From assembly GCA_024220525.1 (NCBI GenBank), contig JAMYWO010000117.1:65121-129120 (forward strand): 64,000 bases of DNA, given 5' to 3'. Each line of letters starts with the position of its first letter. Position 1 is the stretch's first letter. A program made the position numbers and the translations under genes. This stretch comes from Cochliopodium minus (lineage: Eukaryota > Discosea > Himatismenida > Cochliopodiidae). Below, one piece after another: positions 27,878 through 28,513 of this stretch. The notes beneath the pieces were generated by a model that did no database searches, was not told the origin of the DNA, and saw only the letters and a list, made by a program, of their open reading frames with translations.

Positions 27878-28513
27878 TCAATATCCAACTCTATCTCTTG
27901 GAATAAGTCTCAACTCTGATCCATATTTAAGAAATACCTTTCAAATGATTTAAATTAATCTATTTATTCAAAGAAAAATGGAATTCTTACGTTTCCTGCA
28001 CTTTGATTTGGAGTAACACCCATACCCTCTACAAATTTATGTTTATTTTTGAATATTTTCGCAATAAACTTAATTTTCTTTTTTTTTTTTTTGATATATT
28101 TACCTTTAGTTACGACTGCACTTGTTTCATAATTAACTTTGAACTTGTTTTTTTGAGAATAATTTCATTTATGTCTTTGATATTTTTGAATTGTTTGTTA
28201 AATTTTACCTCTTTTTGTGAATAAATGTATTATCTTTGAATGAAGAGTGATATATTACCTTCTGATACAAATTTGATGACTAAATTCAAAAATATTATAA
28301 TTTATTTGTCATAAAATTGGAACAAAAATTTTACCTGCTATGAATGGAGTATCATCTGGAACAGATACAACCTTAAATGGAAGTTTTGGATCTTGAATGA
28401 AGGAAAAATATAAAAAGGTAATTTTGTAGTTTATTTTTTGATTTAATCAAACCTGAAGCCAATATTATTTTTAATGTCACTCTAGTTTGTTGTTTATTGT
28501 TATTGTTATCCAT
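27878..28513 (-). CDS. UFM1: Ubiquitin-fold modifier 1 (UFM1)
   Basis: Seven exons are needed: 28513-28453, 28391-28335, 28279-28259, 28210-28209 (two bases), 28143-28104, 28028-27991 and 27937-27878. They total 279 bases and 92 residues, against 85 for human UFM1. Conserved blocks are [56 protein letters not shown] and [18 protein letters not shown]. The protein ends in VG plus one residue (Tyr); known UFM1 precursors carry a short tail after Gly that UFSP removes before UBA5 activation and ligation. The Glu-Phe junction (SE|E|FKV) reads only if the bases AG at 28210-28209 form an exon; skipping them shifts the frame and gives an early stop. The first exon adds an Asn-rich leader. The UFM1 protease lies about 25 kb downstream. 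Confidence 0.9.

Follow-up and report, generated by a model that had tools for sequence, protein, structure and literature searches.

A probable two-nucleotide coding exon in the UFM1 gene of Cochliopodium minus, with further candidate exons of similar size in the same genome

Internal coding exons of almost no length are already known from nuclear genes. The Arabidopsis gene APC11 is described as containing a constitutive exon of a single nucleotide (PMC4674806), and a 1-nt exon is likewise described for VPS55 (PMC8831610), so that one part of the original prediction for the locus presented here, namely that no exon smaller than two bases had been described, has to be given up. The authors of the APC11 report argue for intron definition combined with recursive, one-after-the-other intron removal (PMC4674806). 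The candidate exon in the UFM1 gene of Cochliopodium minus resembles those of APC11 and VPS55 as they are described, in that it is an internal, frame-essential coding exon of near-zero length in a conserved nuclear gene, bounded by GT-AG introns, but it has two nucleotides against the one of APC11, and is flanked by introns of 48 and 65 nt, whereas the intronic stretch of APC11 is given as 422 nt. The plant study describes two conserved clusters of 1-nt exons, and the string "2-nt" is absent from its main text (PMC8831610); here, in contrast, at least four exons of four nucleotides or fewer are called in one genome, of which a small sample was analysed. The 3-bp micro-exon of Drosophila homothorax is ultra-short like that of UFM1, but is described as alternative and is a multiple of three, whereas the UFM1 exon shifts the frame and its inclusion would be obligatory (PMC7392893). 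Zero-nucleotide recursive sites, in which acceptor and donor abut or nearly so and removal is stepwise, share these traits with the UFM1 arrangement, but are described as retaining no mRNA base and as lying in very long introns, whereas two bases would be kept in UFM1 between very short introns; a 2026 review, which gives 3–15 nt as the typical size of microexons, treats such sites apart (PMC13149111). The 1-bp exon of placozoan cox1 is also of near-zero length, but is mitochondrial and flanked by trans-splicing introns, whereas UFM1 is a nuclear-type gene with GT-AG introns (PMC5436844). A phrase search of the open literature, in which most matches were judged by title and the start of the abstract and which other wordings could escape, brought up no nuclear exon of 2 nt; suggestive phrases in the matching passages of PMC7725694, PMC7247714 and PMC5241210 mean something else, and a search combining UFM1 with microexons returned no paper. 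The class of exon is known; what this literature search did not turn up is a genome with very short introns in which 2-nt exons recur.

The window, that is, the whole stretch of 64,000 nt that was analysed, belongs to a genome assembly of 44.65 Mb in 598 contigs, and its A+T content is 75%; its spliceosomal-type introns and its gene content are those of a eukaryote. The introns have 88.2% A+T, against the 91.86% reported for Anaeramoeba ignava (PMC11550330), whose genus likewise combines AT richness with many Ras/Rab genes. Its minus strand carries a UFM1 gene at 28513-27878, the conceptual protein of which covers the Pfam profile PF03671 over positions 1 to 75 of 75 (122.2 bits, cut-off 27) and matches UFM1 chains in the PDB (best 6.2e-35). 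The full-length domain and a C-terminus reading RDRVGY, that is, RDRVG plus a short tail, place the protein in the UFM1 family. Exon 1 (28453..28513, 61 nt of coding sequence, ATG at 28513-28511) is followed by intron 1 (28392..28452, 61 nt), whose donor GTTTGA stands at the 4.7th and whose acceptor at the 60.7th percentile of the genome's introns, by exon 2 (28335..28391, 57 nt) and by intron 2 (28280..28334, 55 nt). Exon 3 (28259..28279, 21 nt) encodes VIKFVSE and the first base of the next Glu codon. Intron 3 (28211..28258, 48 nt, AAG/GTAATA...AAAAAG/AG) then leads to the predicted exon AG at 28209..28210, which would complete the second Glu codon (G/AG) of SEEFKV, and intron 4 (28144..28208, 65 nt, GAG/GTAAAA...ACAAG/TTC) leads on to exon 5 (28104..28143, 40 nt). 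Intron 5 (28029..28103, 75 nt, acceptor at the 2.8th percentile), exon 6 (27991..28028, 38 nt), intron 6 (27938..27990, 53 nt) and exon 7 (27878..27937, 60 nt, ending in the stop) complete the gene. The letters around the AG are as first described, with an AAAAAG acceptor before it and a GTAAAA donor after it, and the seven exon lengths (61, 57, 21, 2, 40, 38 and 60 nt) reproduce the earlier sum of 279 nt, or 92 codons plus stop.

A search of the genome with the UFM1 protein gave seven matches, of which five are exons of this locus and two are weak ones (E 0.02 and 1.1) that lie in long open frames at other places. A genome search with the PF03671 profile gave no match at E 0.001, which we attribute to the splitting of the domain over short exons. 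Other members of the UFM1 system are present, namely UFC1 on contig C7 (PF08694, 77.2 bits) and a relative of Peptidase_C78, the UFM1 protease family, on the plus strand of the window at 53889-54923 (PF07910, 62.6 bits), about 26 kb from UFM1. An open stretch upstream, which begins at 53889 with KGCAYRCLQ, may hold the catalytic Cys.

Joining 28259 straight to 28143 puts the FKVNYETS segment out of frame, as had been claimed, and the sequence then reads ...VSE-VQS-stop. All GT/GC-AG paths with introns of at least 40 nt that lead from the 3' end of exon 2 as far as SAVVTK were listed, which gave 75 paths, 22 of them in frame, and 13 distinct stop-free peptides. KFVSEEFKV, and with it EEFKV, is kept in one of these 13 only, that of the path through the 2-nt exon, in keeping with the expectation that AG restores both the phase and E-E-F-K-V. 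The best rival, a path through the acceptor at 28137, deletes EFK and reaches 105.3 Pfam bits against 122.2, and a path through the donor at 28268 deletes VSEE and reaches 105.5 bits. A version of UFM1 with one Glu dropped (113.9 bits against 122.2) was rejected, as a GG donor would be required. The statement that the exon is needed consequently stands for the preservation of the conserved protein, but not for the reading frame alone, since in-frame canonical paths exist that lack EFK or VSEE; it is the protein, and not the frame by itself, that appears to force the 2-nt exon.

For an independent placement of introns, a spliced profile aligner was written that accepts any number of introns per codon and uses trained site and length models; its UFM1 profile was made from two UFM1 chains among the PDB matches, which we take to be those of C. 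elegans and human. With no prompting about the exon, the aligner recovered the 2-nt exon at 118.5 nats, and with the acceptor at 28211 disabled its best path was the EFK deletion at 98.4 nats, about 20 nats lower. The exon was retained at intron priors of -5.9, -8, -10 and -12, as well as at frameshift costs of -14, -10, -8 and -6. On this alignment, the 2-nt exon is the best reading of the UFM1 locus by a clear margin.

The splice sites were compared with the genome's own norms by means of a gene finder trained on 225 kb, consisting of the window and 48 loci, with UFM1 masked. This yielded 139 genes and 321 introns, with AG/GTAAAA as the consensus donor and intron lengths with a minimum of 46 and a median of 82 nt; percentiles refer to 318 of these introns, those with N having been left out. 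UFM1 intron 3 has its donor at the 50th, its acceptor at the 82nd and its length at the 1.6th percentile, and the corresponding values for intron 4 are the 63rd, 14.5th and 31st. The competing AG downstream, use of which would leave an exon of zero nucleotides, stands at the 2.8th percentile as an acceptor. Ras-family introns placed by homology reach down to 45, 47 and 48 nt. Splice sites and intron lengths around the AG exon are within the range of the genome, the 48-nt intron being near its lower end, and the locus has the form of an ultra-short microexon, an internal coding exon of a few nucleotides between GT-AG introns whose sites are ordinary for the genome, and its skipping throws the message out of frame. 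The weak points are intron 3, which is among the shortest, and the somewhat weak acceptor of intron 4. Working ab initio, without homology, the finder called only the last two exons of UFM1. In a k-mer enrichment over 467 introns nothing strong emerged as a branch-point motif, ATTAA and ACTAA being weakly enriched.

The same aligner was applied to the Ras family with a profile derived from 18 of the genome's single-exon Ras genes (18 of 30 loci). Fifty-four Ras-family loci were aligned, a non-random sample picked among the partial matches of a genome with at least 164 Ras matches. All but one (53 of 54) were free of frameshift, and profile positions 12 to 150 were covered in 44, the incompletely covered loci being L083, L091, L096, L097, L100, L102, L104, L111, L117 and L118; no intron was placed in L097 and L100. 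The exception, L097 (C25:53400-54800), is a Rho-like gene whose frameshift in the aligner could be an assembly error, a pseudogene, an uncalled intron or a tiny exon. The 126 internal exons of these loci included two of 2 nt, two called at 4 nt, ten of 10–15 nt and 35 of 10–24 nt, and the median intron length in the loci was 68 nt. A Ras-domain match at C1:633782-634150 lies in an open frame of 14,711 codons, contrasting with the fragmented genes.

WDTAGQE is a Rab motif, and in the locus L099 its Trp codon would contain a 2-nt exon TG (...KLAI ATT/TG/G GAT ACT GCT GGA CAA) between introns of 73 and 79 nt. Thirteen of the 50 paths through this locus are in frame, and the TG exon is included in all three stop-free peptides; with this exon disabled the aligner has to resort to a frameshift (107.1 against 124.6 nats), and the exon is stable at intron priors to -12 and frameshift costs to -5. 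The second candidate, a GG exon in L106, would supply the first Gly of the P-loop (MEVYDELIKILII G/GG/GAT AGT GGA GTT GGA AAG) and is flanked by introns of 49 and 54 nt. Here 37 paths, 11 of them in frame, give eight stop-free peptides, and GDSGVGKS is kept by the 2-nt path only. The margin in the alignment is small, at 131.5 against 126.6 nats, which we ascribe to the ability of a local alignment to drop the N-terminus; once the intron prior is -10 or harsher, the exon disappears. Searched for as exact patterns, the TG and GG exons each matched the known locus and no other place in the genome, and hence have no support from paralogues. As for the 4-nt calls, that in L117 was rejected as an artefact of the local alignment end, and the exon CAAT in L121, which has good sites in a diverged stretch and disappears once the intron prior is -11 or harsher, is tentative. 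A 40-nt intron in L114, at the lower limit of the aligner and with a weak donor, is doubtful. The ab initio finder missed the tiny exons of L099, L106 and L121, and in L099 predicted a 2-nt start that is spurious.

In the window itself, a Roco-like gene on the plus strand has a 4-nt exon, TTGG (41367..41370), between two introns of 64 nt each (41303..41366 and 41371..41434), which encodes Val-Gly of the P-loop (IMI-VG-CENVGKTS). Two of its ten paths are in frame, both are stop-free and both use TTGG, and the ab initio finder itself calls the exon at 41367-41370. The predicted protein exceeds the Pfam cut-off for Pkinase (79.7 bits) and LRR_6 (33.7 bits), and remains below it for Roc (18.6 bits) and COR-A (29.7 bits). 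With at least two more 2-nt exons and one 4-nt exon apparently present in the same genome, the 2-nt reading of UFM1 would become both more secure and more general.

Other short exons were met with in proteasome genes. In a PSMB7-like gene, alignment to the human sequence places a 13-nt exon that the gene finder had overlooked; in a PSMB3-like gene the finder itself calls an 11-nt exon behind a start exon of ATG only, and the 3' boundary of this 11-nt exon agrees with the human sequence. In two proteasome genes, L047 and L044, coding seemingly opens with a lone ATG before an intron (the PSMB3-like gene by the gene finder, an alpha subunit by eye). A Phospholip_B-like gene on the plus strand (32402-35487), which matches part of the PF04916 profile at 56.9 bits, has 24 predicted exons, the most among the window predictions, including exons of 7, 15, 15 and 20 nt. 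A second Phospholip_B gene on the minus strand (49883-45949) reaches 545 bits over profile positions 1–486 of 487 with 17 predicted exons, and its T-rich introns read as pseudo-ORFs rich in F, I, L and Y. A 100-N assembly gap at 50363-50462 lies within the predicted gene at 50172-51472.

Three other explanations of the UFM1 locus have to be weighed against a genuine exon. A single intron of 122 nt (28258-28137) would yield a UFM1 that lacks EFK (SE-VNYETS) and would make the AG a matter of intronic noise. Such an intron is canonical, in frame and stop-free, has fair sites (lowest site score 3.9) and becomes the top path once the acceptor at 28211 is disabled; nevertheless, its cost of 20 nats in the spliced alignment and its 105.3 against 122.2 bits, together with an EEFKV that is intact in all three aligned PDB UFM1 sequences (of 14 distinct sequences matched), render it very unlikely. 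Alternatively, an assembly or sequencing error might have removed an AG that truly closes exon 3 or opens exon 5, leaving a single intron in which AG-AG-GT occurs by coincidence, and one of the 54 Ras-family loci, L097, does require a frameshift. This was addressed with 110 decoys, Ras-family loci in which the last two bases of an exon were deleted, with L099 and L106 left out: the aligner responded with a spurious 2-nt exon in two, a 5-nt exon in four and a frameshift in 49. Among 144 gene-finder introns of at least 95 nt, AG-NN-GT with both halves of at least 45 nt occurs in one, and in none of the 144 with site scores equal to those of UFM1, L099, L106 or the Roco-like case, and the coincidence would be needed separately for UFM1, L099, L106 and the 4-nt exon. 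Given an unexplained frameshift in only one of 54 real loci, several clean cases are poorly explained by lost bases combined with coincidence, and we hold this explanation to be even less probable than the EFK deletion.

Least probable of all, to a degree that makes it close to negligible, is a zero-nucleotide recursive splice (ratchet) point without any exon. AG/GT is indeed present, like the zero-nucleotide sites discussed in the review (PMC13149111), but the zero-nucleotide route, in which no base is retained between the introns, would leave the message out of frame just as skipping does; it would also rely on an acceptor at the 2.8th percentile, whereas the upstream AG reaches the 82nd, and the whole stretch measures 115 nt where kilobases would be expected.

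What is directly observed, namely the anatomy of the sequence, the fit of its sites to the norms of the genome and their recurrence as argued from homology, points instead to 28210-28209 as a genuine, constitutively needed 2-nt coding exon of UFM1, whose two short flanking introns would be removed stepwise by an intron-defining spliceosome, and as a reflection of a general tolerance of the genome's splicing machinery, a reading to which we assign a probability of roughly 0.9.

That the RNA is spliced in this manner, constitutively and with the introns leaving in a particular order, is inferred from the features of the genomic sequence, and the process may be pictured as follows. Two nucleotides cannot hold the factors of the upstream acceptor and of the downstream donor at once, and the two introns would therefore be removed in turn, the second of them facing a normal exon after the first has left. 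The statement that exon definition cannot act on an exon of this size agrees with the argument published for the 1-nt exon (PMC4674806). If the 48-nt intron 3 leaves first, exon 3 plus AG would form an ordinary exon end, GAAGAG/GTAAAA, which would serve intron 4 well as a donor; intron 4 could equally be removed before intron 3. The acceptor would be the first AG of the tandem AAAAAG-AG-GT, as use of the second would abolish the exon and throw the mRNA out of frame. Skipping of the AG would bring a stop after three further codons, and such an mRNA would presumably be degraded. Since the introns around exons of 2–24 nt are mostly short, intron definition is the plausible mode, and the 2-nt exons of two Ras/Rab-family genes, along with the 4-nt exon of the Roco-like gene, suggest a general tolerance in splicing and no peculiarity of UFM1. 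In animals, the neuronal microexon programme depends on SRRM3/4; a search for the activator domain SRRM_C (PF15230) gave no match in this genome, and likewise none in 14 control genomes.

An origin of the arrangement by duplication was considered, as introns 3 and 4 of UFM1 look alike by eye (TCAAAGA...TTATTC.CAAAAA), and was rejected. Their local and global alignment scores fall at the 66th and 72nd percentiles of a background of 6000 random pairs from 163 short introns, and the intron pairs of the Roco-like gene, L099 and L106 also have ordinary scores, from the 22nd to the 75th percentile.

It seems somewhat more probable than the contrary that exons in this lineage can be of practically any size, however small, and that those of 2 nt form a regular, constitutive class with hundreds of members or more. 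A spliceosome working by intron definition alone, on introns of about 45 nt and longer, would handle them, and standard annotation would largely fail to show them; the number is a very rough extrapolation from two of 126 internal exons in 54 non-randomly chosen Ras-family loci. If 2-nt exons recur in one genome, gene models, frameshift and pseudogene calls, as well as read aligners, would err systematically in such genomes, and intact conserved genes would look broken. Their recurrence would also offer a natural test bed for how exons too small to bind across are recognised, in which intron definition would be cleanly separated from exon definition and stepwise removal could be traced on introns of about 50 nt. 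Splicing, in that case, would be almost without a lower bound on exon size.
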